Source of the DNA: a virus
Strand: one strand, 5' to 3'
Virus record (IMG/VR): IMGVR_UViG_3300034283_003118
Coordinates: 1-58,919 of that record
DNA length: 58,919 nucleotides
Part shown: piece after piece, positions 10,670 through 39,408 of the stretch
How positions within the stretch are numbered: the first letter of the stretch is position 1
Layout of the letters: every line of letters starts with the position of its first letter
The notes under the pieces: generated by a model
Told to the model about the DNA's origin: nothing
Seen by the model: the letters and a program-made list of their open reading frames with translations, nothing else
Databases searched by the model: none
Program-made: the position numbers and the translations under genes

Positions 10670-10677
10670 AATAAATA
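10670..10677 (+). promoter_or_regulatory. late-type element (AATAAATA) 5 nt before ATG
   Basis: AATAAATA followed by exactly five bases and the ATG at 10683; no Shine-Dalgarno is present. Same geometry as at four other genes in this window, so the message is probably leaderless. Confidence 0.5.
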
Positions 10678-21404: not shown

Positions 21405-21416
21405 ATTGCGATACTC

Positions 21417-21446
21417 CTATCCGCATAAGTTATTTATGCTTGATAG
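21417..21446 (-). promoter_or_regulatory. hairpin with embedded CATAAATA before the endonuclease
   Basis: Minus-strand CTATC-aa-GCATAA-ataac-TTATGC-g-GATAG: 11 paired bases. CATAAATA (21438-21431) lies in the 5' arm and loop, and the 3' arm GATAG overlaps the AGGAG ribosome site of the endonuclease (ATG 21404). A transcript starting at the late element would lack most of the 5' arm. Resembles the control of the endonuclease at 6.2-7.0 kb, but with a weaker stem. Confidence 0.5.
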
Positions 21447-24023: not shown

Positions 24024-25448
24024 TTACTTTTTTGTGTTGTGAGACTGAATCATGTTACGAGCCACCTGAACAGCTTCAGCACGAGTAAATGCAGGATTTT
24101 CCAGAACCTTGGTTAGGATCCTGTCCTTGATCTGGGCAATCAAGGGGCCTTTTGCTCCCAGTTCCATGATCTCGGTTCCATTCAGTATGCTCTGAGTTTT
24201 CAGAATATCGTTAACATCCATCTGCTGAATCTTCTCTCTGATGCGAGCAATTTGATCGGGCATGCTGGCTGCTTCTGAATGCGAAACATTGTCGGCATGC
24301 ATCACGTCCAGGAGATCTTCCAGGTTATGACCCACACGGAAAATAAACTTTCTCAGTGTGCTGTCTTTGAGCTGACTAGCATCTGCCCCTGCACTCTTGA
24401 GATCCATGTGATACTTAACAATGTCACTTACTTTGTTAATTAGATCATTGGGATACTTCAATCTGCGCATCACAGTTTTGGCAATTTCAGAACCCACCTG
24501 AGCATGTCCAATAAATTGGATCTTGCCATTCTTTTCTGTGCGAGTAGCAGCCTTGCCGATGTCGTGAAACAGTGCGCCCAATCGCTTGATCAAATCAGGA
24601 CTGCTGGCATCCAGCACATCCAGTGTGTGTCCCCAGGCGTCTTTAGAATGATAGGCGTTTTGCTTGAGCCGAACCAGCTGGCTGAGTTCGGGCATGACTA
24701 CATCCAATATACCAGTAATCTTAAACAGTTTGAAAGCTCTGCTGGGACGGTTTAACAACAAGATTTTGCTGAGCTCATCGTTGATGCGTTCATTACTGAT
24801 GTTCTTTAGATCACCAGCAAACTTTTTGATGTTTCGGATCATGTGCATGGGCAGCTTGAAGTTGTACTTGATTGCAAAACGCACAGCCCTCAAGATGCGC
24901 AGCGGATCTTCACCAAATATCACAGCAGGATCACCAGTTGTATCTAGCATCTTTTGCTCTAAGTCTTTGCGACCTCTGCCGCTCATGTCCAGTATTTCGC
25001 CAGTGTGCAGATTTTGCAGCAGACTGTTCACAGTGAAATCACGCCGCATCACATCATCTTTAAGTTCACCTGCGGCAACTTCAGGCTTGCGACTGCCTGG
25101 TGTGTATTTTTCTTTGCGCGGTGCCACAAACTCTACGTCAATTTTTCCGCTGGGAGTGGGCACAGTGAGTTTGGCAGTGAAGTAAGTGGGAAAGATCACT
25201 GGATTGCTGTCTGGTTTGTAAACACCCAGCTTTTTGGCGATGAACTCAGCAGCAGCCAATCCGCTGCGGGCATCGCCATCGACGACGAAGTCAACATCTT
25301 TAGAATCACGTCCCAGCAGGGTGTCTCGCACATAACCACCGGCCATGTACAGCTTGCCTTCGTAAGGTGATCCAGTGGTGGCATTGCGGATGATGTCTAG
25401 CACTTCTTCAGCTTGTTTGCTTTCTGTGATCAGTTGTTTTATTGTCAT
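24024..25448 (-). CDS. cca: CCA-adding tRNA nucleotidyltransferase with HD domain and capsid-targeting-like leader
   Basis: 474 residues. Class II NTase head: M-A-G-G-Y-V-R-D-T-L-L-G with K-D-V-D-F-V-V (metal D-x-D), R-R-D-F-T-V-N-S-L and D-P-L-R-I-L-R-A-V-R-F (neck). HD domain L-F-H-D-I-G-K-A near residue 290. This is the bacterial enzyme type that completes tRNA 3' ends. N-terminus M-T-I-K-E-L-I-T-E-S-K is an extra leader matching the head-targeting pattern of the following genes, with I-T-E a plausible prohead-protease site. Role after injection might be repair of host or phage tRNAs cleaved by defences; that is inference. Confidence 0.85.
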   Translation of the reverse strand: MTIKQLITESKQAEEVLDIIRNATTGSPYEGKLYMAGGYVRDTLLGRDSKDVDFVVDGDARSGLAAAEFIAKKLGVYKPDSNPVIFPTYFTAKLTVPTPSGKIDVEFVAPRKEKYTPGSRKPEVAAGELKDDVMRRDFTVNSLLQNLHTGEILDMSGRGRKDLEQKMLDTTGDPAVIFGEDPLRILRAVRFAIKYNFKLPMHMIRNIKKFAGDLKNISNERINDELSKILLLNRPSRAFKLFKITGILDVVMPELSQLVRLKQNAYHSKDAWGHTLDVLDASSPDLIKRLGALFHDIGKAATRTEKNGKIQFIGHAQVGSEIAKTVMRRLKYPNDLINKVSDIVKYHMDLKSAGADASQLKDSTLRKFIFRVGHNLEDLLDVMHADNVSHSEAASMPDQIARIREKIQQMDVNDILKTQSILNGTEIMELGAKGPLIAQIKDRILTKVLENPAFTRAEAVQVARNMIQSHNTKK

Positions 25449-25457
25449 TTCGTAATA

Positions 25458-26360
25458 TTACCTTTTTGTCAGTTTCCAAATTGTTCCAACACCACTTAAA
25501 TCTACTTCATCAAATTGAAAACCCAGATGCTTAACTGCTAATAGAGCCAGTCTTCTATATAATAGCACACGACCCCTGCTTTGATTAAATGCAACAAACG
25601 TAATACTGTCTGGTTTTTTAGTTGCAACAAATTCCCTAAAGAGTTCAATAACAGTTCCGATAACTTGGTTTTGGTGACCTGTGCCAGTTATTTTAGTTTT
25701 AGAACGGTACATTTTGTTGTAGATTTCGCTCCAAGCAGCAGGACCGTAGGGATCAGTTTGCATGATCTTTTCGTCTGGTTGACTGTCTATCATCTTAAAG
25801 TTGACGATATAATTATTACCATAATCACGCTGCGCCACAAACACATACGTCATATCATCCACGTAAAACCAGGAAACTTCGTTGTCATCCCATTGTATAA
25901 ACGGTGCGTGTTTAAGTGGTCTTTCAAATAGTTCTGTTAACTGCACATGTTCATTTGCAACTTTTTTAGCAAACGGTGGAGCTTGTGCTGTTGATTTAGG
26001 TACAGATTGTGTACTAACCACTTGAATATTTTCTGCAGGCACAGGTTCGTATCCTATCCAAGCATTGTAAATATCCATTTCAGGATGAGTATCTGGTGTA
26101 ACTGCGTAATCGCTAGGTAACTGAATCTTCCAAATATCCATTGCGGCTGCACTATCAAACGCACTCCAAAACGCCCAATCCTTTGCTTGATCCAGCGTTT
26201 GCATAAAATACACACCAGGTTTTCTTTTGATATTCTCAAACTCTTGCACACGCGGTAACAAGCCCTGTTGCTGAATACTTTTGCGATTGGCCTTGCGGCT
26301 CACATGATATAATACTTGTGGCTGTTTTTGTAAAGGTTGCGAAAACTCTGTTAGTCTCAT
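25458..26360 (-). CDS. ADP-ribosyltransferase-like protein with two internal-protein leaders
   Basis: 300 residues from ATG 26360 (M-R-L-T-E-F-S-Q-P-L). Residues about 15-120 have L-Y-H-V-S-R-K-A-N-R-K-S-I-Q-Q-Q-G-L-L-P-R and K-P-G-V-Y-F-M, the H-x-S...I...G-L-x-P and V-Y-F pattern of RNA 2'-phosphotransferase/ADP-ribosyltransferase-like folds. A second leader-like segment Q-L-T-E-L-F-E-R-P begins near residue 155, followed by a domain shared with the genes at 26982 and 29963 (V-I-E-L-F-R-E-F-V...L-L-Y-R-R-L-A). T4 Alt is an injected ADP-ribosyltransferase, so a similar role is possible. Confidence 0.6.
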   Translation of the reverse strand: MRLTEFSQPLQKQPQVLYHVSRKANRKSIQQQGLLPRVQEFENIKRKPGVYFMQTLDQAKDWAFWSAFDSAAAMDIWKIQLPSDYAVTPDTHPEMDIYNAWIGYEPVPAENIQVVSTQSVPKSTAQAPPFAKKVANEHVQLTELFERPLKHAPFIQWDDNEVSWFYVDDMTYVFVAQRDYGNNYIVNFKMIDSQPDEKIMQTDPYGPAAWSEIYNKMYRSKTKITGTGHQNQVIGTVIELFREFVATKKPDSITFVAFNQSRGRVLLYRRLALLAVKHLGFQFDEVDLSGVGTIWKLTKR

Positions 26361-26361
26361 G

Positions 26362-26985
26362 TTAGTATACCAAACGATCAATTCTTTTGTAACCAATATT
26401 AAATGCGTTCATCAGCAGTTCCACTTCGCGTAGACATTCATTTCGTCCACCGCCCATTATGTAAGCACCCTGAAAACGTTTTAATTGCGCGACACTGGTC
26501 CACTCCACAATAATGGGATCATCAGCCATCCAGTCCTCCCATTCTGCACCCACTAACTGTTTCAACTGCTCTAACTCTAATTCTCTGCTGTCATTGACTT
26601 TAGCTTGGTACAAGGCACGGATCACTTTGATTATGATAGATTCACTAACACCCTGATCCATCCAAGCTCTGAAATATCCGTATCCCTTATCAACAATCGT
26701 TACTCGATTCCAGTTGTCAGAATCAAACCCGTTGTCTTCCCAAAAATCAATCACTCTTGCTTTGGTATCGTTTGATACACCAGTTTCCTCAGCATTGATA
26801 AACATCAGTACAGGTCCTGTTTGGTTGTTAACAAAATTGATAACTTTCTGACTGATTTTATATGCTTTTGGCATTGAACCCTCAGGTTCACCTCTCTGCT
26901 GGTAATATGCATAAGCCGGTTGCACATCCACCACAATACAAGGTCTGCTCTTTGTTTCAGTCAGTGTGAATTCAGTTAATCTCAT
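26362..26985 (-). CDS. putative packaged isochorismatase-like protein
   Basis: 207 residues. Leader M-R-L-T-E-F-T-L-T-E-T. Then C-I-V-V-D-V-Q-P-A-Y (catalytic-type Asp) and near the C-terminus A-Y-I-M-G-G-G-R-N-E-C-L-R-E-V-E-L-L-M-N-A with a Cys where isochorismatase-fold hydrolases have theirs. The fold assignment is tentative and the substrate unknown. Starts inside the end of the preceding gene (ATGAGACTAA overlap). Confidence 0.5.
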   Translation of the reverse strand: MRLTEFTLTETKSRPCIVVDVQPAYAYYQQRGEPEGSMPKAYKISQKVINFVNNQTGPVLMFINAEETGVSNDTKARVIDFWEDNGFDSDNWNRVTIVDKGYGYFRAWMDQGVSESIIIKVIRALYQAKVNDSRELELEQLKQLVGAEWEDWMADDPIIVEWTSVAQLKRFQGAYIMGGGRNECLREVELLMNAFNIGYKRIDRLVY

Positions 26986-27542
26986 ACGCCCTCTGGTTCC
27001 TTTATCATGTCTTTTTCGTCTTTAAATTCGTTATAAAAATCAATACACTGTTTGAGTTTTGCTTTGCCTTGAGGAGTATTTTGATACACTAAGAAAATTG
27101 TTTGTCCCCAATCTGCAATTTTGAAAACTTTAGAGTTAGTCTGGCCAGCAATGCCATGCGCCAATCTTTCATACATTCGTGTCCTGCTAGCACCAGTGGA
27201 ACTAAAAAACCAAACAGGAACCCCCCAGTCTTGCGCTTGATCATACGCAAGAGTGGCTTTGATCACAGTGTTGAAAATTTTCACAACCTCTTGTGGACCT
27301 GATGTATATGCTTTCCCAAAATTTATTGTGCCGCCCATTTCAACAACACCAAACATTACTTCAGTAGCAGGCGGTTGAGTCATGGGGTTAAAAAATATTT
27401 CGTATTTTGTGCCACGTTCAGTTTCAAAATATTGTGTATTTGCTGCAGGATCTTCTTTTCCTTGTGGTGTGAGTAATGTGTAGGCGTTACTCTCGTCGGG
27501 ATTAGATAATTTGTCAAGCTCAAATAATTCCATTAGTCGCAT
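26982..27542 (-). CDS. putative packaged protein, internal-protein family domain
   Basis: 186 residues. Leader M-R-L-M-E-L-F-E-L-D-K. Main domain: F-G-V-V-E-M-G-G-T-I-N, V-V-K-I-F-N-T-V-I-K-A-T, R-T-R-M-Y-E-R-L-A, matching the C-terminal domain of the 25458 protein and the 29963 protein in order and spacing. GNAT-like beta-alpha topology is possible. Function unknown. Confidence 0.6.
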   Translation of the reverse strand: MRLMELFELDKLSNPDESNAYTLLTPQGKEDPAANTQYFETERGTKYEIFFNPMTQPPATEVMFGVVEMGGTINFGKAYTSGPQEVVKIFNTVIKATLAYDQAQDWGVPVWFFSSTGASRTRMYERLAHGIAGQTNSKVFKIADWGQTIFLVYQNTPQGKAKLKQCIDFYNEFKDEKDMIKEPEGV

Positions 27543-27543
27543 G

Positions 27544-27930
27544 TTAGCTTCTCTTCTTCACCGCAGGTTGTGGTTTTATTGGGCTTACGCGATTGACACT
27601 GGGGTTTTCTTCACTTTTGGCGGTGCTGATTCTGCGTTTGGCATTATGATGACCCATGAGTTTCAGAGCCGACTTCAGTGTCTGTTCTTCTTCCGGAGTG
27701 GGTGTACTAACCAGCATGTTTTCACCAAACGCACTGGGATCAACGTTGCCGTCAATCAATCCCTGGTCCACAGCACGAGCCTTGGCCAGAGCCAAACCCA
27801 TGCGGTATTGTAGGTATGGGTCCTGATTGGTGAGACCAGGTAATGCCCACATGCCTGGCAGTGCATGTGATACACCAATCTGTAAACTGCCTTCACCAAC
27901 ACCTTCGGAAAGTAATTCTTTTATCAGCAT
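27544..27930 (-). CDS. putative packaged internal protein
   Basis: 128 residues from ATG 27930 (M-L-I-K-E-L-L-S-E-G). After the leader: S-H-A-L-P-G-M-W-A-L-P-G-L, a helical part and a basic tail (K-P-Q-P-A-V-K-K-R-S). Basic and without a recognised fold, like T4 internal proteins. No Shine-Dalgarno; CTAAATA lies exactly five bases before ATG. Confidence 0.55.
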   Translation of the reverse strand: MLIKELLSEGVGEGSLQIGVSHALPGMWALPGLTNQDPYLQYRMGLALAKARAVDQGLIDGNVDPSAFGENMLVSTPTPEEEQTLKSALKLMGHHNAKRRISTAKSEENPSVNRVSPIKPQPAVKKRS

Positions 27931-27935
27931 ATGAT

Positions 27936-27942
27936 TATTTAG
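27936..27942 (-). promoter_or_regulatory. late element CTAAATA 5 nt before ATG
   Basis: CTAAATA then ATCAT then ATG (27930). Divergent from a CTAAATA on the plus strand (27970-27976) that serves the glycosyltransferase, so the interval is a divergent late promoter region. Confidence 0.55.
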
Positions 27943-27989
27943 TAAATTTTTCAGTATCTGCTGCACTAACTAAATATGCGTAGTTAATT

Positions 27990-28781
27990 ATGAGAGTTAG
28001 CGTACTTTTACCCACACGTGGCAGAACACATACTCTATTGAGCAGTGTTCAGAATCTTTTAAGCAAGGCCAGTGAACCAGAATTAGTAGAAATTTTGCTG
28101 GCCATGGATAACGACGACATCCAAAGTGTAGCCTTTGCTCGCGACGAAATCCAAGCTCTTTATCCAGATAACATTCACATCTATCAGATGCAACCTCTGG
28201 GTTATCAAAAACTCAATGTCTATTACAACACATTGGCTGGTTTGGCCTGGGGTCAGTGGCTCATGGTGTGGAACGATGATGCTTTGATAGACACAGCGGG
28301 TTGGGATTTGGTCTTGGACCGCTATCTGGATCATCCCATGCCCTTGCTCAGAATGCCCTGTAGTAACTTTGAACACCCTTTTGCTCTGTTTCCCATCATA
28401 CGCAAAGAGTGGTTCAATGTTTGCGGATTTTTCAGCTATTACACTCACATAGATCGTTTTCTATACAATGTTGCTCAAAATATTGCAGGAAACATCATAG
28501 TGGATATTCCAGTCACAGTTACTCATGATCGTGCAGATCTAACTGGCAATAACCGAGATCAGACTTTTGAAAACAGTTATAAAAGTCACGATCATGGAAA
28601 TCCGCAAGATCCCAACAGTGACGAATATGTAGTTGCATTGCAGGTGGTAATGCATATGGTAAATCGGTTAAGCGTGCATATTAATACAAAATATGGTTAT
28701 CAGATCCCCTTGATTGATCAGACCAAGCCCATGGAGATTCGCAAAACCATGGCAAACAGTCACAACCACAAAAACATCTAG
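27990..28781 (+). CDS. family 2 type glycosyltransferase
   Basis: 263 residues, GT-A fold: V-S-V-L-L-P-T-R-G-R start and W-L-M-V-W-N-D-D-A-L-I-D as the acidic metal/nucleotide-sugar motif. Probably modifies a surface glycan or phage component together with the epimerase that follows. Stop is UAG; the next gene begins 27 nt later in the same frame with no other stop between (see findings). Confidence 0.8.
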   Translation: MRVSVLLPTRGRTHTLLSSVQNLLSKASEPELVEILLAMDNDDIQSVAFARDEIQALYPDNIHIYQMQPLGYQKLNVYYNTLAGLAWGQWLMVWNDDALIDTAGWDLVLDRYLDHPMPLLRMPCSNFEHPFALFPIIRKEWFNVCGFFSYYTHIDRFLYNVAQNIAGNIIVDIPVTVTHDRADLTGNNRDQTFENSYKSHDHGNPQDPNSDEYVVALQVVMHMVNRLSVHINTKYGYQIPLIDQTKPMEIRKTMANSHNHKNI

Positions 28782-28808
28782 TTTCAATTTTTACTCAAAG
28801 GATATATT

Positions 28809-29759
28809 ATGAAAATTTTTATCACAGGACACGACGGTTTTATTGGGCAACATCTGGTGGCGAGGCTGCAAGACAAACATGAATTGTGTTTTTTAGAACA
28901 TGATCTCAGAGATCACGCAAGCACCAGTGCGCAGATTCGTCAGTTTAATCCAGAAGTTATTGTTCACCTGGCTGCTCGAACTGAAGTTGAAAAAAGCTTC
29001 TATGAACAAATTGCATTCAGTGAGATCAATTATGTAGGCACAGTAAACCTGATTGAAACAGCCAGAGACCTGCCCAATTTCAAGAACTTTGTTTTTGCCA
29101 GCACCATGGAAGTATATGGGTGGCAACCCATTAGTGATTTGATTGAGCATGGCCAGGAAGAAGGCATCATTGCTTTTGATGAAACCACTCCGCCCAATCC
29201 CAATGCACCATATGCTGTGGCCAAGTATGCTTGTGAAAAATATCTGGAATATGCTCATCGCAGTTATCAGTTACCATTTACTGCTATTCGTCAGACCAAT
29301 GCATATGGCAGAAAAGACAACAATTTCTTTGTTACCGAACAAATCATTTACCAAATGCTAACCAATGATAAAGAAATCAATTTGGGTTATGGTGAACCCT
29401 ATCGTAACTTTATCTATATTGATGATTTGTTGGATGCTTGGGAATCAGTGATTGAAAATCCAGAAAAATGTGCTGGTGAGATTTTTTGTATTGGCCCAAA
29501 TAATGCTATCAAAATTAAAGACTATGTGCAGATGATCGCTGACAAACTTGGCTGGAATGGCGCAGTAAACTGGAACACCAAGCCCAAGCGTGCTGGTGAA
29601 ATTTATCTACTCAACAGCGTCAATGACAAAATCACCGCCAAATTGGGTTGGTATCCCAAAGTGGATTTGAATGAAGGACTGGACCGAACCATTGGCTTTT
29701 GGAAAGCTATTGTTCACAACAATACAGAATTCAACAAGAGAAAAAAGTTTACACTATAA
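28809..29759 (+). CDS. NAD-dependent nucleotide-sugar epimerase/dehydratase
   Basis: 316 residues of the extended SDR family. I-T-G-H-D-G-F-I-G-Q-H (G-x-x-G-x-x-G), A-S-T-M-E-V-Y-G, and catalytic Y-A-V-A-K (Y-x-x-x-K). Interconverts or dehydrates an NDP-sugar. Preceded by AAAGGA and in one transcript with the glycosyltransferase. A perfect palindromic terminator follows. Confidence 0.85.
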   Translation: MKIFITGHDGFIGQHLVARLQDKHELCFLEHDLRDHASTSAQIRQFNPEVIVHLAARTEVEKSFYEQIAFSEINYVGTVNLIETARDLPNFKNFVFASTMEVYGWQPISDLIEHGQEEGIIAFDETTPPNPNAPYAVAKYACEKYLEYAHRSYQLPFTAIRQTNAYGRKDNNFFVTEQIIYQMLTNDKEINLGYGEPYRNFIYIDDLLDAWESVIENPEKCAGEIFCIGPNNAIKIKDYVQMIADKLGWNGAVNWNTKPKRAGEIYLLNSVNDKITAKLGWYPKVDLNEGLDRTIGFWKAIVHNNTEFNKRKKFTL

Positions 29760-29761
29760 AC

Positions 29762-29793
29762 AAATTTGGCCCAGCAATTGCTGGGCCAAATTT
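29762..29793. terminator. perfect palindromic terminator
   Basis: AAATTTGGCCCAGCAA and its exact complement back to back, followed by TTTTAT on the plus strand and AAATTTG on the minus. Ends the epimerase transcript and the convergent small-protein gene. Confidence 0.8.
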
Positions 29794-29951
29794 TATATCT
29801 TGCCTTGACCGCGATACTTTTTGTAACAGCGTCGCTTGTGCTTGTTCATTTTAGCAGTAGCCATCTTACCGCCACCGATTGTTGTTCTCTTTTTACCCAA
29901 TCTCTTAAAGATTGTCTTTAATGGTTTTTCACCTGCTTTAGCTTTGGCCAT
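29793..29951 (-). CDS. small very basic protein
   Basis: 52 residues, 20 of them Lys/Arg (K-R-L-G-K-K-R-T-T-I-G-G-G-K, K-H-K-R-R-C-Y-K-K). Start ATG 29951 with GGAGAT site upstream. Size and charge suggest nucleic-acid binding, possibly a DNA-packaging or ribosome-associated peptide. It sits at the downstream end of the internal-protein operon. Confidence 0.65.
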   Translation of the reverse strand: MAKAKAGEKPLKTIFKRLGKKRTTIGGGKMATAKMNKHKRRCYKKYRGQGKI

Positions 29952-29962
29952 AGTTGATCTCC

Positions 29963-30527
29963 TTAGTCAATTTGTCCTAAATCTCTAAAGTTATTCATTA
30001 ACATGGATAACATTTCTTTGTCTTTGGCAAAAAAATAAAATATCTGTGGCATCACGAACGACCCTGATGCTGATGCATACTCCCAGCCAGTTTGTCTTTT
30101 GATTACCGCAGCAAAGGTTGAGTAAAGTTTTTCTCTACCTGGCACTGAATTGAATACCACACCCTTTGCTTGTGTTTGCTTGATAAAATCATTAAGCAGA
30201 CTACCCACAGTGCTAAACACAGTGACGCTTTCTCTGCCCATGTTACCTACATCACTCATTTTACTCAAAGTTTCGTTGTCTATTTTCAGTGGTGTACTGC
30301 ATTTAGCCTGGATCATGTTTATGAACCAGAAATTTTTGAATTCATCCGACATGTAATAAGCCTGTCTCAGATCACCAGCTCTCAAGCAAAATGGCGTAGG
30401 TTCTCCCTGGGCATTGGGGAACTTCAAATTGCCAAGCCCATGAGCTTCCTTTGCTTATTACTTCAACATTTAGATTAGGATCCAAGTCGCTTAGAGATTT
30501 TGGTTCAAAAAGTTCTGTAATTAACAT
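29963..30527 (-). pseudogene. putative packaged internal protein, frame interrupted
   Basis: The N-terminus M-L-I-T-E-L-F-E-P-K-S-L at 30527 is one frame; the body (G-L-G-N-L-K-F-P-N-A-Q onward) is in another, with the switch near 30447-30453 (AAAGGAAGC), where one G less would join them into about 187 residues. The body has S-V-T-V-F-S-T-V-G-S-L-L-N-D-F-I and K-L-Y-S-T-F-A-A-V, the domain shared with the proteins at 25458 and 26982. A restart at M-K-F-P (30427) would lose the leader. Either decay or sequencing error. Confidence 0.6.
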
Positions 30528-30532
30528 ACAAG

Positions 30533-30539
30533 TATTTAG
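30533..30539 (-). promoter_or_regulatory. late element CTAAATA 5 nt before ATG
   Basis: CTAAATA, five bases, ATG at 30527. It overlaps the stop codon of the upstream repeat-protein gene. No ribosome site. Confidence 0.5.
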
Positions 30540-32302
30540 TTCCGCTGTGCTATTTGTCTGACTCGTGGTGTTGGATTTGCGATGTAGTTAATTAAATTCC
30601 TATCTTGTTTCACCGCAGCTAACTGTACTGCTTCGCTTGGCTTGTCAATGTATTGGATTGCGTATCCATTCTCTTGCACTGCATACATCTGAACCGGCTC
30701 GCTGGGATCTTCAATCATTTCAATTGCGTACCCATTTTTTTGAACCGCAACCAGCTGCGCTTGTTCGCTGGGTTTTTTGATGTATTGGATTGCTCTTGGA
30801 CTTTTCTGAACTGCGATCAGTTGTAATTGTTCGCTGGGATTTTTGAACCATTGTATTGCACGCGGTTGGTTTTGTACTGCAATCAGTTGTATTTGTTCGC
30901 TGGGGTTTTCAATGTACCGAATCATATCCCCATTTTCTTGAACCGCAATCAGCTGCGCTTGTTCGCTGGGTTTTTTGATCCATTGTATTGCACGCGGTTG
31001 GTTTTGTACTGCAATCAGTTGCATCTTTTCGCTTGGATTGTTTATGTGTGCAATTGATAGCCCATCTCTTTGTACCGCAGCCAGTTTTACTGCCTCGCTG
31101 GGATTTCTAATTTCTTGAAATGCGTAAATGTCTTGTCGCACAGCAGCCACTTGCACAGCTTCGCTGGGATTTTTGATATAACGAATCGCGAGCCCATACT
31201 TCTTTACAGCAAACAGTTGCATCTTTTCGCTTGGATTGTTTATGTGTGCAATTGATAGCCCATCTCTTTGTACCGCAGCCAGTTTTACTGCCTCGCTGGG
31301 ATTTTCGATGTACTGGATTGCATGCCCAGTTTCTTGAACCGCAGCCAGTTTTACTGCCTCGCTGGGATTTTCGATCGATTGAATCGCATACCCAGTGTGT
31401 TTCACTGCGATCAGCTGAACTTCTTCACTGGGATTTTTGATATACTTGAATGCATGGGGGGCGTTTTTTAATGCAGCTATCTGAATCTCTTCGCTGGGAT
31501 TTTTGATAAATTCAAGTAAGTCCCCATTTTGTTTCACTGCGGCCAGTTGATCCGATGGATCAGTGTTCCACATAATATGTGGACTTATTTTATGCATGAT
31601 TGGTTGCAGTTTGTCATAAAAAGGCAATGTTAATGGATCCACAGTGCCATCTTTCACATCCATAAACTGAAACAAATATGGATCAGATCGTCTAAACCAA
31701 TACTGATATTTAACTTGAGATTTGACTGACTCACCATCATCATTACGATAAGTAACAAACTGTGGAGGCAAAGGAATAATCACATACAAGGGCCCACTGC
31801 TAAAGTAATGCATGAACTGATTGTTTCTTTCAGATATCGTGCACCACCGAGTGCCCTGACCCCAGAATTTTGCTGCGGTCTCATCTAGTAATTCAATTAC
31901 TCTCAACTCAGCATCACGGTATATCTCTCGGTACTTGCCTCTGTCTTCTGATTCGTCATCCGTCAATTGATACTGGTCTACTGCTGACAAGAAGTCATCA
32001 GCTGTTTTGAACTTATTGATATCTGCGTGTTGGGACTTGATCTGCTTCTTGATTTTCAACTGATGATACTTGGCCAATGCATCAGCAGTGGTGCTGATCA
32101 GATCTTCAACAGGCTTGCCAGCCAGCCACCATTGCGCCAGACGAGGTACATAGCTCTTTTGTGGAGTAGGATCTGCAGATTCTAGCTGTTCAAGGCTGAA
32201 GTCAGGATCTTGTTTGATTCTCTGCTGATAAGTGGGCAGTGATTCAATTCGTTGTTTCTCTCTTTTTCTGTCGTATTCCAGTAAGATCTCATATGCTCGC
32301 AT
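30536..32302 (-). CDS. large repeat protein (14-15 copies of a 22-residue NPSE unit), putative head-packaged
   Basis: 588 residues. Leader M-R-A-Y-E-I-L-L-E-Y. Residues about 140-230 hold G-Q-G-T-R-W-C-T-I-S-E-R-N-N-Q-F and L-Y-V-I-I-P-L, a motif block known from several large phages but unassigned. From about residue 260 to the end run 22-residue repeats with consensus I-(K/E)-N-P-S-E-x-(V/A)-Q-L-x-A-V-Q-x-x-x-x-A-I-Q-(Y/W); 14 full copies and a last partial. Predicted helical-repeat solenoid. The 10683 protein has one or two copies. No Shine-Dalgarno; CATAAATA lies five bases before ATG. Confidence 0.75.
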   Translation of the reverse strand: MRAYEILLEYDRKREKQRIESLPTYQQRIKQDPDFSLEQLESADPTPQKSYVPRLAQWWLAGKPVEDLISTTADALAKYHQLKIKKQIKSQHADINKFKTADDFLSAVDQYQLTDDESEDRGKYREIYRDAELRVIELLDETAAKFWGQGTRWCTISERNNQFMHYFSSGPLYVIIPLPPQFVTYRNDDGESVKSQVKYQYWFRRSDPYLFQFMDVKDGTVDPLTLPFYDKLQPIMHKISPHIMWNTDPSDQLAAVKQNGDLLEFIKNPSEEIQIAALKNAPHAFKYIKNPSEEVQLIAVKHTGYAIQSIENPSEAVKLAAVQETGHAIQYIENPSEAVKLAAVQRDGLSIAHINNPSEKMQLFAVKKYGLAIRYIKNPSEAVQVAAVRQDIYAFQEIRNPSEAVKLAAVQRDGLSIAHINNPSEKMQLIAVQNQPRAIQWIKKPSEQAQLIAVQENGDMIRYIENPSEQIQLIAVQNQPRAIQWFKNPSEQLQLIAVQKSPRAIQYIKKPSEQAQLVAVQKNGYAIEMIEDPSEPVQMYAVQENGYAIQYIDKPSEAVQLAAVKQDRNLINYIANPTPRVRQIAQRN

Positions 32303-32307
32303 GTTTT

Positions 32308-32315
32308 TATTTATG
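32308..32315 (-). promoter_or_regulatory. late element CATAAATA 5 nt before ATG
   Basis: CATAAATA (32315-32308), AAAAC, ATG at 32302. Another CTAAATA lies 10 bases upstream at the end of the acetyltransferase gene. Confidence 0.55.
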
Positions 32316-32319
32316 CAAA

Positions 32320-32688
32320 TTATTTAGGATCGCGAATCATAAGCTGCCGAGTTGTAAAATCTTTGTGTCTACCCTGATTCAGTTTAAATCCAAACTGCTT
32401 GTAAAACTTAATCAATCTATCTCTACTAGTTGTACCAGTGCTAGTGTTGCGCTCGCTGGGAGTGAGTAATATCCTTTTGTGCCAGTGATCAGCGTAAGCA
32501 GTCAACCGGCGCATGGCCTCTGCACCACGCCCCTGTCCTTGGAATTGTTTAGCAACCTGTAGATATTCCAGTTCAATATCGCCATCAAAAGTCATCGCCA
32601 ATTCAAAACGAATCAGTCCCAATTCCTGAGCTTGTTTTGCTGCCCACTCTTTGACTGCTTTGTGATCAATAAAATCCAGTATTCTCAT
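32320..32688 (-). CDS. GNAT-family acetyltransferase
   Basis: 122 residues. Motif A of GNAT: Q-F-Q-G-Q-G-R-G-A-E-A-M (acetyl-CoA pyrophosphate loop) near residue 50; F-Y-K-Q-F-G-F-K at the C-terminus is the usual last strand. Begins M-R-I-L-D-F-I-D, a variant of the leader seen in neighbours. Overlaps the lysozyme-like gene by four bases (ATGA). Substrate unknown. Confidence 0.75.
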   Translation of the reverse strand: MRILDFIDHKAVKEWAAKQAQELGLIRFELAMTFDGDIELEYLQVAKQFQGQGRGAEAMRRLTAYADHWHKRILLTPSERNTSTGTTSRDRLIKFYKQFGFKLNQGRHKDFTTRQLMIRDPK

Positions 32689-33479
32689 TTGTGTTTTTGA
32701 CCCGTTTTTGGTTTCTCTCCACGAAATTTTTCTATACGACGTTTAAGATGTTTTTCTGCTGCTGATCCACTGACCTGACGAGTAACTTTGGTAACAGCTT
32801 GTGGTGATTTAAAATTTACCTTGGGAGCCACTCTCCATTTCCAATAAGCTATGGCGGTGGCGGCAGCTACTCCGGGATTACGAGAAACCAGATCAGGGTT
32901 GTTTACCAGATCCAGACCCAACATCTGACCAATACGATGGTAGTTGTATTTGCCAGTTAGATGCATAAATCCACGACCACGAAATCTCATGCCGTCACCG
33001 GGCCTGGTGTTACCCAAAATTGAACCTTTGCGTGAACGAACTCCGTATTTCCTCTCCATGCGATCAGCGTCGCCTATTTCTTCCAGCGCACGAAAGTCCA
33101 TGGTTTCGTGTGCAGACTGGCTTAAAAAGTGCTGTAGTTCCTCGCCTTTGATTCCAGCAGCCTGAGCCATCTTCTTCAACAGTGATTTACGCTCTTCTGG
33201 AGTTTCAGCTTGTATCTTCTTGAGTGTCTGAACTGGATCAGTCACTGTATCTGGTGTGGGTTTGGCAGTGGGCTTGGTCGTAACTGTTGACTGTTGACTC
33301 ATAGCACTGGGCTTATTGGTAGATAGTTCCGTAGATTGACTGGTATCAGTAACTTTGGAATCACGATCTAGTAAGTGACTGCCGCCAGCAGCTAATACAC
33401 CAGCCAGAGCGGCATTTCTAAGCCAGCTGAGTACACCTTCGTCCAGATACTGCGGGTCACTAACTTCTTCAAAACGCAT
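32685..33479 (-). CDS. GH19 (chitinase-like) lysozyme with N-terminal hydrophobic segment
   Basis: 264 residues. Catalytic-type Q-S-A-H-E-T-M-D-F, then F-R-G-R-G-F-M-H-L-T-G-K-Y-N-Y and the C-terminal A-A-T-A-I-A-Y-W-K-W, characteristic of GH19 phage endolysins. N-terminus M-R-F-E-E-V-S-D-P, then a hydrophobic stretch L-R-N-A-A-L-A-G-V-L-A-A-G-G, then a T/S/P-rich linker (residues about 45-85). The location in the internal-protein run suggests a virion-associated lysin; it may also be the lysis endolysin because none is next to the holin. Confidence 0.8.
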   Translation of the reverse strand: MRFEEVSDPQYLDEGVLSWLRNAALAGVLAAGGSHLLDRDSKVTDTSQSTELSTNKPSAMSQQSTVTTKPTAKPTPDTVTDPVQTLKKIQAETPEERKSLLKKMAQAAGIKGEELQHFLSQSAHETMDFRALEEIGDADRMERKYGVRSRKGSILGNTRPGDGMRFRGRGFMHLTGKYNYHRIGQMLGLDLVNNPDLVSRNPGVAAATAIAYWKWRVAPKVNFKSPQAVTKVTRQVSGSAAEKHLKRRIEKFRGEKPKTGQKHK

Positions 33480-33491
33480 GTGTTTGTCCTT

Positions 33492-33674
33492 TTAGTCAGC
33501 GTCTGCTTCACATTCACGACAACGGCCTTCGGTGCCACGCCCTGCGGTACTTAGGGGCTGTCCACAGTCTACACATCTGCCCTGTTTCTTTCTGAGTTCA
33601 GGGGTGTCTGCTTCGGGCTTTTTGTTTTTTGCTTCCAATATGTCGATATAACGACGGAAAAATCTGGGGTCCAT
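33492..33674 (-). CDS. small zinc-ribbon protein
   Basis: 60 residues. C-V-D-C-G ... C-R-E-C-E is a four-cysteine zinc ribbon; the N-terminus is basic (D-P-R-F-F-R-R-Y-I-D-I-L-E-A). Just downstream of the 33678 gene in the same operon. Possibly DNA- or protein-binding. Confidence 0.6.
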   Translation of the reverse strand: MDPRFFRRYIDILEAKNKKPEADTPELRKKQGRCVDCGQPLSTAGRGTEGRCRECEADAD

Positions 33675-33677
33675 AAC

Positions 33678-34415
33678 TTACTCCTTGTCTGTCTTTACCC
33701 TAATAGGTTTCTTACCAGTTCCACCACTTGCACGTCCAGGTCTGTCTGCTGCTCGCTGTGCTGATCTCTTGCGATTTACTGCACTCTGCTTTTCTTTTTT
33801 GCTCATGCTGGCTGCTTTTTTAGCTGGTACACATTTGGCATAGCCGCGTGTTTCTCCGCTGGTGCCACAAGGCGGATGTTTGCCACCTTTTTTCTTAGCA
33901 ATATTGACCCACTTTTCCTTAAACCATTTGGTCAATCCTCCAGTGGGTTTGTCTTCGGTAATTTCCTGATTGTGATTTATTCCAAAGAAATTACTTAGTT
34001 CATCAATAAATTTCTGCTTTGTTAATGCCTGGATCCAATTGGATCCACCTTCATAAAGAAAATTATAAAATTTAGCATCAGCGTTATCATTGATAATTCT
34101 TAGGATGCTGTTGTATATTTTGGGAGTTTTTTTGAATTTGACTGTGTTAAAGAACAATACAAAGTTCTTTGTTTTGCTATCATACTCCACTAACCAACGA
34201 ATCCATCCATGTTTTGTTGCATGATACTCACTCGCATCCTCTGGTAGATTATATTGATCTGCTAGTCTTCGCAAAATACTGGTATGTGTTTTATCCGACT
34301 CCGTTGGACAAATTATTTCACCTGCAGGATCGATCCACCCCCAGCTAAAATACTGAGGGAACATGTGCGGTTGTTTTGCACAGATGCTTTCATTGACTAG
34401 TTCTTTAATGGTCAT
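33678..34415 (-). CDS. putative packaged protein with WGWI...GWIRW domain
   Basis: 245 residues. Leader M-T-I-K-E-L-V-N-E-S. Residues about 24-75 show W-G-W-I-D-P-A-G-E-I, then H-x-x-x..., G-W-I-R-W, shared with the proteins at 36799 and 37755. The C-terminal 75 residues contain P-P-C-G-T-S-G-E-T-R-G-Y-A-K-C-V-P and a very basic tail, another widespread phage motif. Function unknown. ATG overlaps the upstream small gene's stop. Confidence 0.65.
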   Translation of the reverse strand: MTIKELVNESICAKQPHMFPQYFSWGWIDPAGEIICPTESDKTHTSILRRLADQYNLPEDASEYHATKHGWIRWLVEYDSKTKNFVLFFNTVKFKKTPKIYNSILRIINDNADAKFYNFLYEGGSNWIQALTKQKFIDELSNFFGINHNQEITEDKPTGGLTKWFKEKWVNIAKKKGGKHPPCGTSGETRGYAKCVPAKKAASMSKKEKQSAVNRKRSAQRAADRPGRASGGTGKKPIRVKTDKE

Positions 34416-34579
34416 TTCTTTTTCTTCTTACCCTTACGCCCATAGTAGCATTGCACTACCTGCGCACTAGCATAGGCTGATGGCCACACGCTCACACGGT
34501 TTTTAACCCGTTGCTGACAGGCTTTGTGCTTGGCTTTGTTTTTGGGTTTCCAACCTTCTGTGAGTTCATTAATGGTCAT
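34412..34579 (-). CDS. small basic protein with internal-protein leader
   Basis: 55 residues: M-T-I-N-E-L-T-E-G-W then a Lys/Arg-rich chain with S-V-W-P-S-A-Y-A-S-A-Q-V-V-Q-C, a motif repeated in many T4-like phage proteins, and a K-rich tail. Too short for most gene callers. Stop and next ATG overlap (ATGA). Confidence 0.65.
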   Translation of the reverse strand: MTINELTEGWKPKNKAKHKACQQRVKNRVSVWPSAYASAQVVQCYYGRKGKKKKK

Positions 34580-34626
34580 TTTGTATTACCTCAAGCTCAT
34601 CCAGAGAAACCATTAGTTCCTCACCA

Positions 34627-35589
34627 TCAAAATCTACCCAAGCGAAATGATTCTGCTGTGGGCTGTGTCTGTTTGTTTTTTGCGGTTGCTCTGCGGGTAC
34701 GTGATCTTACTGCTTCGGGATTTTGACTGTACACTCTTCCTGACGCCGTTGGTGCTGGCGTTGGTGCTGGCGTTGGTGCTGGCGTTGGTGCTGGCGTTGG
34801 TGCTGCTGAAATTTTCTTAAGTTGGGCAGCAACTTTTCCAGTAACCGCGGGGTTAGCATTGGCTAAACTTCTGAATGCATCAGCTAATATTTTATTACCC
34901 TGAGCTGAAGGTTTATTGAATGCGGTGACAAGTGCTCCTGGTTTAATTGGTAATCCCAGAGTCTTTACAATGTTAGCAGCAACCACAGAAATATCTGCTT
35001 GTTCTGCTGGAGCCGGTGCTGCTTGTTGTGTGCGTGGCTGTGCTGATGTTTGTGCAGTTTGTGCTTGGGGTTGACCAGTTACCGTACTGGCGCTAGCAGC
35101 TTTACCCTGCTGGTATGCTTGTCTGACATCCGATACTGCACCAGTACCCGCGGCGGTACCAGCGGCTTTGCCTTGCTGATATGCTTGTTTGACTCCTGAT
35201 ACTGCGCCCGCAACTGCACCAATGCCTTTTGCTACTTTGCCAGCACCTTGTGCAATTTTAGATCCCAAATCAGCAAGTCCAGCTTCTTCCACAGGCTCTT
35301 GATGTAAAAATTCAGCAAACTCCCTGGCCAGCTGAGTTACATAGTCTTCATCAATGGCAGTCTTATTATTTTCCAAGTCTTCACCACACCCACCAACCAA
35401 CTTTCCCTTAAATGGATGTTCGGTATCGGTGCTGGATGCTAGCACAGAGATTGAGCGAGCCTTTTCATCACCACTGACTTGATCAGGAAATCTAAAAGAA
35501 GAATAGGGCTTATTTAATACTGCACCATCTTCATCTATTGAACTGTTTTCCAGTTCATCCAATTTAGCTTTCAAGCGTTCAAAATCCAT
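34627..35589 (-). CDS. hypothetical protein with Ala/Pro-rich linkers
   Basis: 320 residues. N-terminal charged segment (L-K-A-K-L-D-E-L-E-N), middle helix-forming A/G-rich repeats (G-V-K-Q-A-Y-Q-Q-G-K-A-A-G twice, V-R-Q-A-Y-Q-Q-G-K-A), then an A-P-T-P tandem repeat encoded by a 12-bp DNA repeat, and a basic C-terminus. No catalytic motif seen. A TATAAATA and AGGAGA site are upstream. Probably a structural or head-associated protein; that is inference. Confidence 0.6.
   Translation of the reverse strand: MDFERLKAKLDELENSSIDEDGAVLNKPYSSFRFPDQVSGDEKARSISVLASSTDTEHPFKGKLVGGCGEDLENNKTAIDEDYVTQLAREFAEFLHQEPVEEAGLADLGSKIAQGAGKVAKGIGAVAGAVSGVKQAYQQGKAAGTAAGTGAVSDVRQAYQQGKAASASTVTGQPQAQTAQTSAQPRTQQAAPAPAEQADISVVAANIVKTLGLPIKPGALVTAFNKPSAQGNKILADAFRSLANANPAVTGKVAAQLKKISAAPTPAPTPAPTPAPTPAPTASGRVYSQNPEAVRSRTRRATAKNKQTQPTAESFRLGRF
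34748..34807. repeat. 12-bp tandem repeat, 4 full copies plus a partial
   Basis: Unit GTTGGTGCTGGC on the plus strand, coding A-P-T-P on the minus strand. In-frame, so copy number changes only alter linker length. Confidence 0.85.
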
Positions 35590-35607
35590 AACAGTCTCCT
35601 ATTCAAT

Positions 35608-35615
35608 TATTTATA
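35608..35615 (-). promoter_or_regulatory. T4-type late promoter TATAAATA
   Basis: Exact match; AGGAGA and ATG (35589) follow 18 bases later. Confidence 0.65.
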
Positions 35616-35620
35616 CACAG

Positions 35621-36784
35621 TTACGAGATCTTGTAACGAGAGGCATATTGTTTTTGTAATTGGTTGATATTGGTGTTGCGACGCATGCCCCAGGTCTTCA
35701 ACAACAAGTCAATGGCAGCGTTTTTCTCAGACATGTCTCTCTGATAATCATTGCGATATAGACCGTGCGCACGTTCTGACAGAGTTTTTTCCAGGAATTT
35801 ATTCAGTACTCTCTGTTTCTCTTCGGGTGTTAGACTGGAACTCAAAAGTTTTAATAAGCCAATATATGACCAAAAATATTGATGTGCTTTGTCAGGATTT
35901 TCCAAACGCTGCCCTAGCATGTTCTGGAAAATTTTGTTGATGTTTTTTTCATAACCAGTTGCTGCACGTTCACGCATCACCATTAACCCGTCTTTTGTTA
36001 GAGGCTTGCCATTTTGATCCAGCACGGGCTCGTATTTGGCTCTCAAACCGCCGCCTTCTTTACTGGTGATGGAGAAGGTATACAGTTTGTCTTCGGTGGG
36101 GACGTCTTGCTCAGCACGAGCTTTACCACGTCCACGCATTTTTCTCAACAGAAATTTAGTCTGAGTCAGCATGGTTAACGATTGAATCAGAAATTTATGA
36201 AACACACCCTTGATACCCAATTGTATGTCATCCCAACTGCTGCTGTGACTGAATTGACTCCAGGGCGTGGGTTTGTCCTGATAGTAATCAGTCATCTCGA
36301 TATCTATTTGTATGTTGATCTTGGGATCGCCGAAACTCCACAAACTACAAACCTGAGAACTTCCAGGTTTGTAACCAATTAGAGTAGCGTTACCCAAAGT
36401 TTTGCCTGTTATCTGATCCAGCAGTCTCTTGATATTTTGTTCTTTGGTTTTGTCAATCATGAGATCAATATCACCCAGGCTCTTTTTCTTCTGAGCAAAC
36501 TCCTGATCAGGTATGCCCTCCAGATTAAAAAAGTGTTTGCTACTGCCACTGACAAACCCACGCTCCTGTAATAACTGGTCACTCCACAAGGGTTCTTTGT
36601 ACATTTTCTGATATGCTGCGTTCAGTGTTCCCAGTAGGCTCATTAACATTTTCACCACAGTTTTGCGAAATTCTGGATTATTTTCCAGATTTATTCGTTG
36701 AGCTGCTACCCCATTTAGTTGAAGATTTCCGCCTTCGACTAATAGAGTTTTGTTAACGGGTTGAGTAAATTCACAAAGTCTCAT
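35621..36784 (-). CDS. putative packaged nucleotidyltransferase-fold protein
   Basis: 387 residues. Leader M-R-L-C-E-F-T-Q-P-V-N-K-T-L-L-V-E-G. F-V-S-G-S-S-K-H-F and S-L-G-D-I-D-L-M-I-D (G-S then G-D-x-D) are the metal-binding pattern of polymerase-beta-like nucleotidyltransferases. The rest is helical. Substrate unknown. Confidence 0.65.
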   Translation of the reverse strand: MRLCEFTQPVNKTLLVEGGNLQLNGVAAQRINLENNPEFRKTVVKMLMSLLGTLNAAYQKMYKEPLWSDQLLQERGFVSGSSKHFFNLEGIPDQEFAQKKKSLGDIDLMIDKTKEQNIKRLLDQITGKTLGNATLIGYKPGSSQVCSLWSFGDPKINIQIDIEMTDYYQDKPTPWSQFSHSSSWDDIQLGIKGVFHKFLIQSLTMLTQTKFLLRKMRGRGKARAEQDVPTEDKLYTFSITSKEGGGLRAKYEPVLDQNGKPLTKDGLMVMRERAATGYEKNINKIFQNMLGQRLENPDKAHQYFWSYIGLLKLLSSSLTPEEKQRVLNKFLEKTLSERAHGLYRNDYQRDMSEKNAAIDLLLKTWGMRRNTNINQLQKQYASRYKIS

Positions 36785-36798
36785 TGTGTGGTTCCGGA

Positions 36799-37686
36799 TT
36801 AAAATTTATGATCAGTATCGGTGTACTTTTCCACTTGTTCTTCACGCATGTACTGAATCACACTCTCCACATAGTCATTGGCCAGTGTAATATAAGAACT
36901 AATCCAACCAGGCAACCCTTCGCGTTCTCCCACATTTCTCAGCATATCATATAATTCTGCAGAATTTTGTGCTAGGTTCAACAGTTCACCGTGAGCCATG
37001 CGAACTTCGTGATCTAGATGTCCGGGTATGTGAGTTTCACCCACCCGTTTGCGTTTTTGATTGACCCCAGTAACTGAGACTCCCTTGCCTCTTCTGAGAG
37101 GTTTGTCACCAATTCCACCACTTGCAAATCCAGTTCCTATAACCGCAACACTGCCGCTAGTGGTTTCTTTAAGATTCTGCTCAATGCCCTGCTGATCCAT
37201 ATATTGTTTTAATTCATTGATTGCTTTGGAAAAACTGGCCCCTCTAATATATGTGTATCCGGGTCTATCTATTTGTATATTATATTCATCAATCAATAGC
37301 ATTCCGCCAGGATCTGTTGCAGCACGTCTGGCATCTTTTCCGTTAAAATAACCGAACTTTTTGGGATTTTTTGCCAGAGCTTCAATCTGCCTCACTGCTT
37401 TTGTAAGAGCAACTACAGTGTTGGGCATTGCATTACAATTGAAAACCAATGATCCGCTAGAAAGATACCATCGAATCCAACCTTTTGAAAATGCATCATA
37501 GTAACCAGACTCAAACCCCCATCGTGTTATCATGACGCTGTGATGTACATCCGTTTTTGATTCGGCATCCTTTTTGGTGGGCAAGTGTACTTTTCCTTTG
37601 GGCTCAATCCAGCCCCACATGTCGTACCCCAAATCCAAAAATTCTTCGTCTAACTGATTTTCTTCTATAAATTCAGTAAGTTTCAT
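36799..37686 (-). CDS. putative packaged protein with WGWI...GWIRW domain
   Basis: 295 residues. Leader M-K-L-T-E-F-I-E-E-N. Domain M-W-G-W-I-E-P-K-G-K-V-H ... H-H-S-V ... G-W-I-R-W-Y shared with proteins at 33678 and 37755. C-terminus contains A-S-G-G-I-G-D-K-P-L-R-R-G-K-G and a helical segment R-M-A-H-G-E-L-L-N-L-A. TATAAATA plus AGAGAG site upstream. Confidence 0.65.
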   Translation of the reverse strand: MKLTEFIEENQLDEEFLDLGYDMWGWIEPKGKVHLPTKKDAESKTDVHHSVMITRWGFESGYYDAFSKGWIRWYLSSGSLVFNCNAMPNTVVALTKAVRQIEALAKNPKKFGYFNGKDARRAATDPGGMLLIDEYNIQIDRPGYTYIRGASFSKAINELKQYMDQQGIEQNLKETTSGSVAVIGTGFASGGIGDKPLRRGKGVSVTGVNQKRKRVGETHIPGHLDHEVRMAHGELLNLAQNSAELYDMLRNVGEREGLPGWISSYITLANDYVESVIQYMREEQVEKYTDTDHKF

Positions 37687-37704
37687 ATGATTTCTCTCTA
37701 ACTA

Positions 37705-37712
37705 TATTTATA
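37705..37712 (-). promoter_or_regulatory. T4-type late promoter TATAAATA
   Basis: Exact match 18 bases upstream of the ATG at 37686, with AGAGAGA between. Confidence 0.65.
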
Positions 37713-37754
37713 TTTTTCTCCAAAACATCTCAGTGTAACTCTTATCTAATTGTT

Positions 37755-38240
37755 TCACGGTTGCATAGCTGTCTTGGACATTAATTCTCTCTGCATGAGA
37801 TTGATCAGTGTCTGTGGGGATTCTATTCCTTCTTTGTAGAAAGTACCACCAGCGTCCAGAGTGTATGTCCAGATATACACAGGCAGAGTATCTTCGTCAT
37901 CATCAAAAAAATGACGAATTTTATTAGGGTCGCTTGCTAATTTAGTGATATTTTTAATTCCCTGTGTCACTGTGGTTATGAGTTCTGGAGAAATTTTTTC
38001 ACTGGTTTCCATTTTTAGTTCACCGTACAGCACAAACCAACGTACCCATCCAGCTTGCCATGCTTTCACATAACCTGGAAACCCTAATTTTTTTATCATG
38101 TCGCTGTGAATATAAGATTTCTGACTTCTTGCCATGTCAGCGGTGGCCAGGTGAACTTTACCACCAGGTGCTATCCAACCCCACATCTCATAGGGCATCG
38201 AGAAGTATTCATTTAGATTGAATATTTCTGTTATTCTCAT
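37755..38240 (-). CDS. putative packaged protein with WGWI...GWVRW domain
   Basis: 161 residues from ATG 38240 with AAAGGAT site. Leader M-R-I-T-E-I-F-N-L-N-E. M-W-G-W-I-A-P-G-G-K-V-H-L-A-T, H-S-D-M, G-W-V-R-W. Close relative of the 36799 N-terminal domain, suggesting tandem duplication. Unknown function. Confidence 0.65.
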   Translation of the reverse strand: MRITEIFNLNEYFSMPYEMWGWIAPGGKVHLATADMARSQKSYIHSDMIKKLGFPGYVKAWQAGWVRWFVLYGELKMETSEKISPELITTVTQGIKNITKLASDPNKIRHFFDDDEDTLPVYIWTYTLDAGGTFYKEGIESPQTLINLMQRELMSKTAMQP

Positions 38241-38251
38241 CAGAATATCCT

Positions 38252-38689
38252 TTATGCTCTGCCGGTTTTGCCAATTGCACGCAACATCCATCCATGCTTT
38301 TCATGAATATCAATGCGATCCTGTAAGAAATTCTGCAAACCCAAATGATCACCGGCCAAGTTATATGCTGCTTCCAGGCTGTCAATTACTCGTTGGTTAT
38401 CAGATAACAGCTCGTCAAACATCAGTTCAGCACGTGGTACCATCAGCTGATCATTAATGGTGGTCAATTCACTGAATCTCTGTAAACTGCCAGGTGCATA
38501 CATGTCCAGTGTGCGAATATGTTCAGCAATAGCATCCACTGCGGCCCAAACTTCAGCATATAGGTTGCCCAAAAAATCATGATACTGAACAAAACTGGGA
38601 CCTTCTACATTCCAGTGAAAATTTAACGCCTTTAGTGTAAAAGCAAAGCTGTTGGCCAATGCTACTTTAAGTGCTTGTTCTAAATTCAT
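38252..38689 (-). CDS. Dps/ferritin-like DNA-protection protein
   Basis: 145 residues. Four-helix bundle with L-N-F-H-W-N-V-E-G-P-S-F near residue 22, D-A-I-A-E-H-I-R near 55 and H-E-K-H-G-W-M-L near the C-terminus, which are the ferroxidase histidine and acidic positions of Dps. Binds iron and DNA to limit oxidative damage. Placed between internal-protein genes. Confidence 0.8.
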   Translation of the reverse strand: MNLEQALKVALANSFAFTLKALNFHWNVEGPSFVQYHDFLGNLYAEVWAAVDAIAEHIRTLDMYAPGSLQRFSELTTINDQLMVPRAELMFDELLSDNQRVIDSLEAAYNLAGDHLGLQNFLQDRIDIHEKHGWMLRAIGKTGRA

Positions 38690-39400: not shown

Positions 39401-39408
39401 TATTTATG
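39401..39408 (-). promoter_or_regulatory. late element CATAAATA 5 nt before ATG
   Basis: CATAAATA (39408-39401), TCATT, ATG at 39395. Divergent from the secreted nuclease gene on the plus strand. Confidence 0.55.

Follow-up and report, generated by a model that had tools for sequence, protein, structure and literature searches.

The block and its genes

The DNA considered here is a virus record of 58,919 bases (IMG/VR record IMGVR_UViG_3300034283_003118; hereafter the window), a fragment of a larger genome, in which a block of minus-strand genes between 24.0 and 38.3 kb encodes proteins with a common short N-terminal leader, similar in kind to the capsid-targeting sequence of phage T4 internal proteins. 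The backbone genes match those of jumbo myoviruses, and the window is, by its sequence, a 59-kb piece of a jumbo phage that has PA5oct, Phosso, Atu_ph07 and SCTP-2 as relatives. The DNA polymerase of the window shares 59% identity with that of G019 (an IMG/VR contig of 328 kb), about 50% with that of Sinorhizobium phage Phosso and 41-44% with those of PA5oct, Atu_ph07 and SCTP-2. Sibling contigs nearly identical to the window are present in other samples.

The genes of the block that a first-pass annotation had listed as leader-bearing all exist on the minus strand, with the true starts of 25458, 27544 and 37755 at internal ATGs (26360, 27930 and 38240). In the leaders given below, a slash marks the position after the (L/I)-x-E-type site. 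The gene at 24024-25448 (MTIKQLITE/S; phrog_2244) encodes a CCA-adding tRNA nucleotidyltransferase carrying PolyA_pol head (PF01743, 7e-22), RNA-binding (PF12627, 3e-13) and HD (PF01966, 4e-9) domains, all over the Pfam cut-off. Its neighbour at 25458-26360 starts with MRLTEF and has no L-x-E nearby; the N-terminal half is without assignment, and the C-terminal half belongs to phrog_6387 and has a homologue in PA5oct (242891, MHLFELFDQIE) that was detected in virions. The ADP-ribosyl-like function proposed for 25458 in the first-pass annotation was not confirmed: the protein has no Pfam match, the ADP-ribosyltransferase (ART) domain included, tblastn against phages gave no match, and in the structure model the N-terminal half is too poor to use while the C-terminal half weakly matches GNAT folds. 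Functions were not assigned to 26362-26985 (MRLTEFTLTE/T) and 27544-27930 (MLIKELLSE/G); the structure model of the former is uninterpretable (predicted local distance difference test score of 43), and a region 57% identical to it lies at the end of another leader protein (G010 19532, MKISQLL). The protein encoded between them (26982-27542, MRLMELFE/L) is, by eye, like the C-terminal domain of 25458. At 29963-30527 the open reading frame as called is without a leader, and the N-terminus MLITELFEPKSLSDL lies in another frame (MLITELFEPK at about 30527), so that the gene is frameshifted; the same 230 bases are found in two sibling contigs.

Further along the block, 30536-32302 (MRAYEILLE/Y) is a DUF4116-type repeat protein with homologues in PA5oct (130473, MKLFEVFTLYE, virion-detected) and in G010 (MKISELLFE). 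The leader-type start MRILDF at 32320-32688 precedes a GNAT acetyltransferase domain, and this protein is 37% identical, from residue 1, to Atu_ph07 gp063 (MRLFQLLE). The gene at 32685-33479 (MRFEEVSDPQYLDE/G) encodes a GH19 chitinase/lysozyme-type endolysin. Three proteins share the WGWI domain: 33678-34415 (MTIKELVNE/S), a paralogue with a basic phrog_23735 tail, 36799-37686 (MKLTEFIEE/N) and 37755-38240 (MRITEIFNLNE/Y), the last with a homologue in contig G002 that starts MRLFEIFDSYL. The protein of 35621-36784 (MRLCEFTQPVNKTLLVE/G) belongs to the phrog_19290 family and is nucleotidyltransferase-like by sequence motif. Weak leader look-alikes occur on a zinc-ribbon-like protein of 60 residues (33492-33674, MDPRFFRRYIDILEA, with an I-L-E site) and on an Ala/Pro-rich protein (34627-35589, MDFERLKAKLDELE) whose N-terminal region is common to G002 40263. 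Outside the block, on the plus strand, a stand-alone leader gene (10683-11864, MRFTEFLAE/L) encodes DUF4116-type repeats.

The enzymatic cargo named in the first-pass annotation is thus borne out by domain matches for tRNA CCA addition, GNAT acetyltransferase and GH19-type lysozyme. The nucleotidyltransferases were a mixed case: a Pfam domain is present in 38691, which lacks a leader in the window, whereas 35621 is assigned by sequence motif and homology without a Pfam match. A G002 polypeptide of 1181 residues (33982-37527) unites homologues of both, the part corresponding to 35621 (E 5e-70) with MNLFELF at an internal methionine, which indicates that cargo genes split and fuse. The island also holds a Ferritin/Dps-like gene without a leader (38252-38689), strongly conserved in G002 (E 1e-71).

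The leader motif and its controls

The motif was tested in its original wording, M-(R/K/T/L)-x-x-(E/D)-(F/L/I/V), and stands at the start of 14 of the 83 window genes; the block, with 16 minus-strand genes between 24.0 and 38.3 kb, accounts for 11 of these (Fisher 8e-8). Gene 10683 matches as well, and the two other matches, 2817 and 4181, lie outside the block and look like chance. The claim that fourteen block genes and 10683 bear the leader is confirmed with corrections: 24024 joins the 12 motif proteins if Q is accepted at position 5, and the frameshifted 29963 belongs to the set by its leader in the other frame. When residues 2-30 of every protein were permuted in 20,000 rounds, the motif occurred on average 0.66 times in the whole set (maximum 6) and 0.19 times in the block (maximum 3). 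An (L/I)-x-E tripeptide, which had been described as frequent within about 12 residues, ends at residues 8-18 in 9 of the 12 motif proteins against 2.7 expected, a count reached in none of the 20,000 shuffles; it is absent within 18 residues in 25458 and 32320, and 33678 has V-N-E instead. In a control with internal methionines, strict leader plus site was observed 8 times against 0.2 expected.

The leader can be summarized as M-(R/K)-hydrophobic-x-(E/D/Q)-(F/L/I)...(L/I)-x-E, a short form in place of the exact T4 form MKTYQEFIAE, which was not found on the window leaders. The bodies behind 15 tags belong to 12 families unrelated to one another, and synonymous codons encode the same leader residues (Leu CTA/TTA/CTT, Arg AGA/CGA/CGT, Thr ACA/ACT/ACG), which together indicate that the common element is the peptide and not recently duplicated DNA. 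A sequencing artefact or recent duplication as the source of the leader was rejected on account of the sibling contigs and the codon variation. Leader proteins are also more basic than other window proteins (median isoelectric point 9.3 vs 6.2, P=0.045), and T4 internal proteins are likewise basic.

Layout of the island and other features of the window

The interval between clpA and polB is about 19 kb in the window vs about 2 kb in G019, the closest long relative, and in a related fragment (L147) the order of CCA enzyme, leader gene and polB is preserved, so that the block is a variable insertion. The T4 late-promoter-like sequence ATAAATA lies no more than 45 nucleotides upstream of a start codon in 11 of its 13 window copies. 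Such elements stand at the head of the block, before 38691 (39401-39408, minus strand), before 30536 (32308-32315, minus strand), before 10683 (10670-10677, plus strand) and, as TATAAATA, upstream of 36799 (37705-37712) and of 34627 (35608-35615), both on the minus strand. A motif resembling ATAAATA precedes structural genes in phage CBB (PMC5259590). In PA5oct, TATAAATA as a late promoter was found before 2 genes only.

Elsewhere in the window, intein-like sequences split the DNA polymerase (19477-23613), with a probable endonuclease reading frame between the halves. Genes resembling QueE (7041-7844), QueD (8594-9019), FolE (14638-15312) and DpdA (16646-18280), identified by eye and by homology only, suggest 7-deazaguanine DNA modification. 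A predicted tRNA with a CUA anticodon (53384-53457) was called as tRNA-Pyl and is possibly an amber suppressor.

Leaders and head proteins in related phages

A protease of the S77 family was found over the Pfam cut-off in the complete records of Phosso, PA5oct, SCTP-2, Atu_ph07 and Munch, the last being a Rak2-type phage with few leaders; T4, taken as positive control, was recovered as well. In five of six relatives, the short leader is present on a small core protein encoded between portal and protease, namely in PA5oct (where it was detected in virions), Phosso, Atu_ph07, G019 and Munch, with leaders MKINDIITE, MRYNEF, MKLTELFNPLTE, MRYRELIKEN and MLNELFE. In gene order, this interval is the place of T4 gp67/gp68. 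Furthermore, an L-x-E tripeptide (LVE, LKE, LAE, LRE) closes the propeptide region of the relatives' major capsid proteins.

The same cargo is found under leaders of different length. The GH19 lysozyme and WGWI families bear the short leader in the window (WGWI also in G002); in contigs G003, G004 and G008 their leaders are of the long T4 type (MLSFKEFEEE, MKSFKTYITE, MISFKSFLTE), MLSFKEFEEE being that of the homologue of 32685 (G003 2715). The S77 protease was also found in three contigs of the long-leader group (G004, G007 and G008), and no WGWI family member was found in 12 large S77 contigs. Judged by these N-termini, one cargo under two leader forms is what would be expected if the leader were an address tag and the core that reads it differed between lineages.

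Leader arrays extend well beyond the window. Strict leaders number 21 in SCTP-2 (0.2 expected) and 24 in Atu_ph07 (1.0 expected). In LR756501.1, a phage genome of 735 kb, 49 long-type leaders were counted against 7.8 expected; the same long-leader pattern applied to T4 as a positive control finds two proteins starting MKTYQEFIAE, which are taken here to be IPII and IPIII. In LR756501.1 a homologue of the CCA enzyme is fused behind the leader-type start MITKFKLFE, and a homologue of the window's nucleotidyltransferase starts with MLKYNSFIKE; the counterpart of 38691 in this phage bears a leader. Among its long leaders (L072-L080, L101-L128) are MIKTFDEFINE and MKKFNSFINE, and the cargo includes a radical SAM protein and a nucleotidyltransferase. 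Leader-borne cargo thus amounts to about 13 genes in a 15-kb island plus 10683 in the window, about 20 in SCTP-2 and Atu_ph07, and more than 40 in the 735-kb phage, whose N-termini possibly mark the largest set of head cargo seen. LR756501.1 has two S77 matches, both below the cut-off: one (73913-76336, E 7.5e-6) joins an S77-like prohead protease domain to a long scaffold-like repeat in which (L/I)-x-E occurs 14 times, for the most part as YIAE, and the other, at about 11.4 kb, is a second, diverged copy in which Tyr replaces the GExDHP histidine of the others.

Virion detection was assessed with the PA5oct record, which marks proteins detected by electrospray ionization tandem mass spectrometry and in which 263 genes were examined. 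Six of the eight motif proteins were virion-detected, compared with 93 of 263 overall (P=0.025), as were five of the six that combine motif and cleavage site (P=0.022). For the Atu_ph07 cluster of coding sequences (CDS) 31-76, 29 virion proteins were reported for the cluster as a whole (PMC6102473), and the tandem gp053-gp063 array with M(R/K)WxQLxE leaders falls within it. This array (L133 15485-26593) comprises about ten proteins, most with a YRG(M/I) motif (phrog_11975/12810); these are possibly ADP-ribosyltransferase-like, and a Pfam search of them for ART gave no match. A zeta-toxin-type kinase domain is present in gp053.

Probable capsid targeting and its alternatives

The favoured explanation, to which a probability of about 0.8 is given, is that the N-termini are T4-type capsid-targeting sequences in a shortened, lineage-specific form, borne by a variable cargo island whose products are delivered from the head together with the DNA. 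The block would be expressed late in infection, and the leader would dock each protein onto the prohead scaffold core, where the S77 prohead protease would cleave after (L/I)-x-E; the mature protein would remain in the head beside the DNA and enter the next host, probably to serve in tRNA repair, host modification or counter-defence. The capsid-targeting reading, already put forward in the first-pass annotation, is supported by the protease and the tagged core protein of the relatives, by virion detection in PA5oct, which includes the homologues of 30536 and 25458, by L-x-E in the capsid propeptides, and by long T4-type leaders on homologous cargo elsewhere. For the phage of the window itself, packaging is argued from its relatives, and cleavage, injection and function are likewise presumed.

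Several observations weigh against this explanation. A gp21-like protease, sought in line with the first-pass annotation, is present in five complete relatives, but a direct S77 search did not find it in the window, where no head-assembly gene was seen either; as the window is a fragment, this search is uninformative. The core protein of SCTP-2 is without a leader, a clear cleavage site is missing from two or three of the leaders, and no semi-tryptic peptide was seen. In PA5oct the association is of modest strength (P about 0.02), and the mass-spectrometry list of this phage includes proteins that are likely contaminants, ribonucleotide reductase for one. When all PA5oct N-termini were scored with a profile, the detected proteins could not be told apart from the undetected ones (P=0.75), so that only the top matches are informative, and mass spectrometry does not place proteins in the head interior.

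The same lack of localization in the PA5oct data, together with the tag on the core protein, would also suit a leader that targets proteins to the virion without delivery, as parts of the tail, baseplate or head core or as core proteins that are degraded, none of them being injected. This is an unlikely account, since soluble enzymes for which no structural use is obvious (tRNA nucleotidyltransferase, GNAT) make up several of the bodies, the site pattern fits gp21-type cleavage, and T4 ejects proteins that bear such leaders (PMC9026906). The adjacent, co-directional arrangement of the genes and the ATAAATA upstream of some of them might instead point to a translational or regulatory signal at the RNA or DNA level, or to a single 5' end that was duplicated recently, the shared start then playing no part in targeting. 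Such an origin is very improbable given that the peptide is kept while its codons differ synonymously, that the motif is found on other cargo in phages of other composition, and that a downstream cleavage-type site is enriched as well.

Sorting to another compartment, such as a phage nucleus, a membrane or a partner enzyme complex, would have a precedent in the nucleus sorting of other jumbo phages. It is thought marginally less probable still, as no nucleus genes were noticed, the relatives have T4-type heads with an S77 protease, and the tag is present on the gene between portal and protease. Chance, finally, could be suspected from the looseness of the motif, the composition bias of N-termini and the apparently spurious matches at 2817 and 4181, but it is hardly credible against 14 matches where the shuffles average 0.66 and never exceed 6, and against the concentration in one block; the shuffles and the internal-methionine control refute it.

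Relation to known systems and implications

Internal proteins of T4 are loaded through an N-terminal capsid-targeting sequence 10 residues long, in which gp21 cleaves behind a glutamate; the first 10 residues suffice for targeting, residues 8 and 10 are the positions of processing, and a foreign protein fused to the leader is packaged and delivered (PMC9026906). The island of the window resembles IPI, IPII, IPIII and Alt of T4, which are cut by the S77 protease gp21, in its short N-terminal tag on unrelated proteins, its hydrophobic/Glu pattern, its (L/I)-x-E site and its variable cargo. It differs in a leader one residue shorter than MKTYQEFIAE and of the type R/K-L/I/F-x-E-F, in about 13 cargo genes in one island instead of a handful, and in a cargo that includes a tRNA CCA enzyme, a GNAT and a GH19 lysozyme. 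In kind, it is the internal-protein system of T4, with a shortened variant of the leader and a far larger set of enzymes as cargo.

In the ejection (inner-body) proteins of phiKZ and SPN3US, an S77-type protease likewise cuts many head proteins that are ejected with the DNA (PMC5694885), but their propeptides mostly exceed 100 residues and these phages belong to another lineage. Closer is Atu_ph07 CDS 31-76 (PMC6102473), with its tandem gp053-gp063 leaders and a GNAT (gp063) homologous to 32320; its authors report virion detection and no leader, and the cargo is mostly one paralogous YRG family. MuF-fused and polyvalent effectors are head-packaged and delivered too (PMC9503650), yet by head-protein fusion or other signals and not by a short leader. 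The DarA-type defence proteins of phage P1, also head-packaged and delivered, differ in the same way. In the open literature searched, no description of leader arrays in this phage group was found, although one may exist elsewhere.

Phage T4 injects a handful of proteins, and what is known of the injected sets of other phages comes mostly from individual virion proteomes. With confidence only a little above even, it is proposed that large phages with T4-type heads use a delivery code that can be expanded, in which a lineage-specific zip code of 9-17 residues is matched to the head core while cargo is gained and swapped, so that each virion would inject tens of enzymes, among them a ready-made enzyme for tRNA CCA repair that would act ahead of phage gene expression. 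If the leader code is right, the injected cargo of large T4-headed phages could be recognized from their sequences, and dozens of proteins without assigned function would be flagged as first-minute effectors. It would also provide new tags with which proteins could be directed into phage heads, and would raise the question of why tRNA CCA repair is delivered ready-made.

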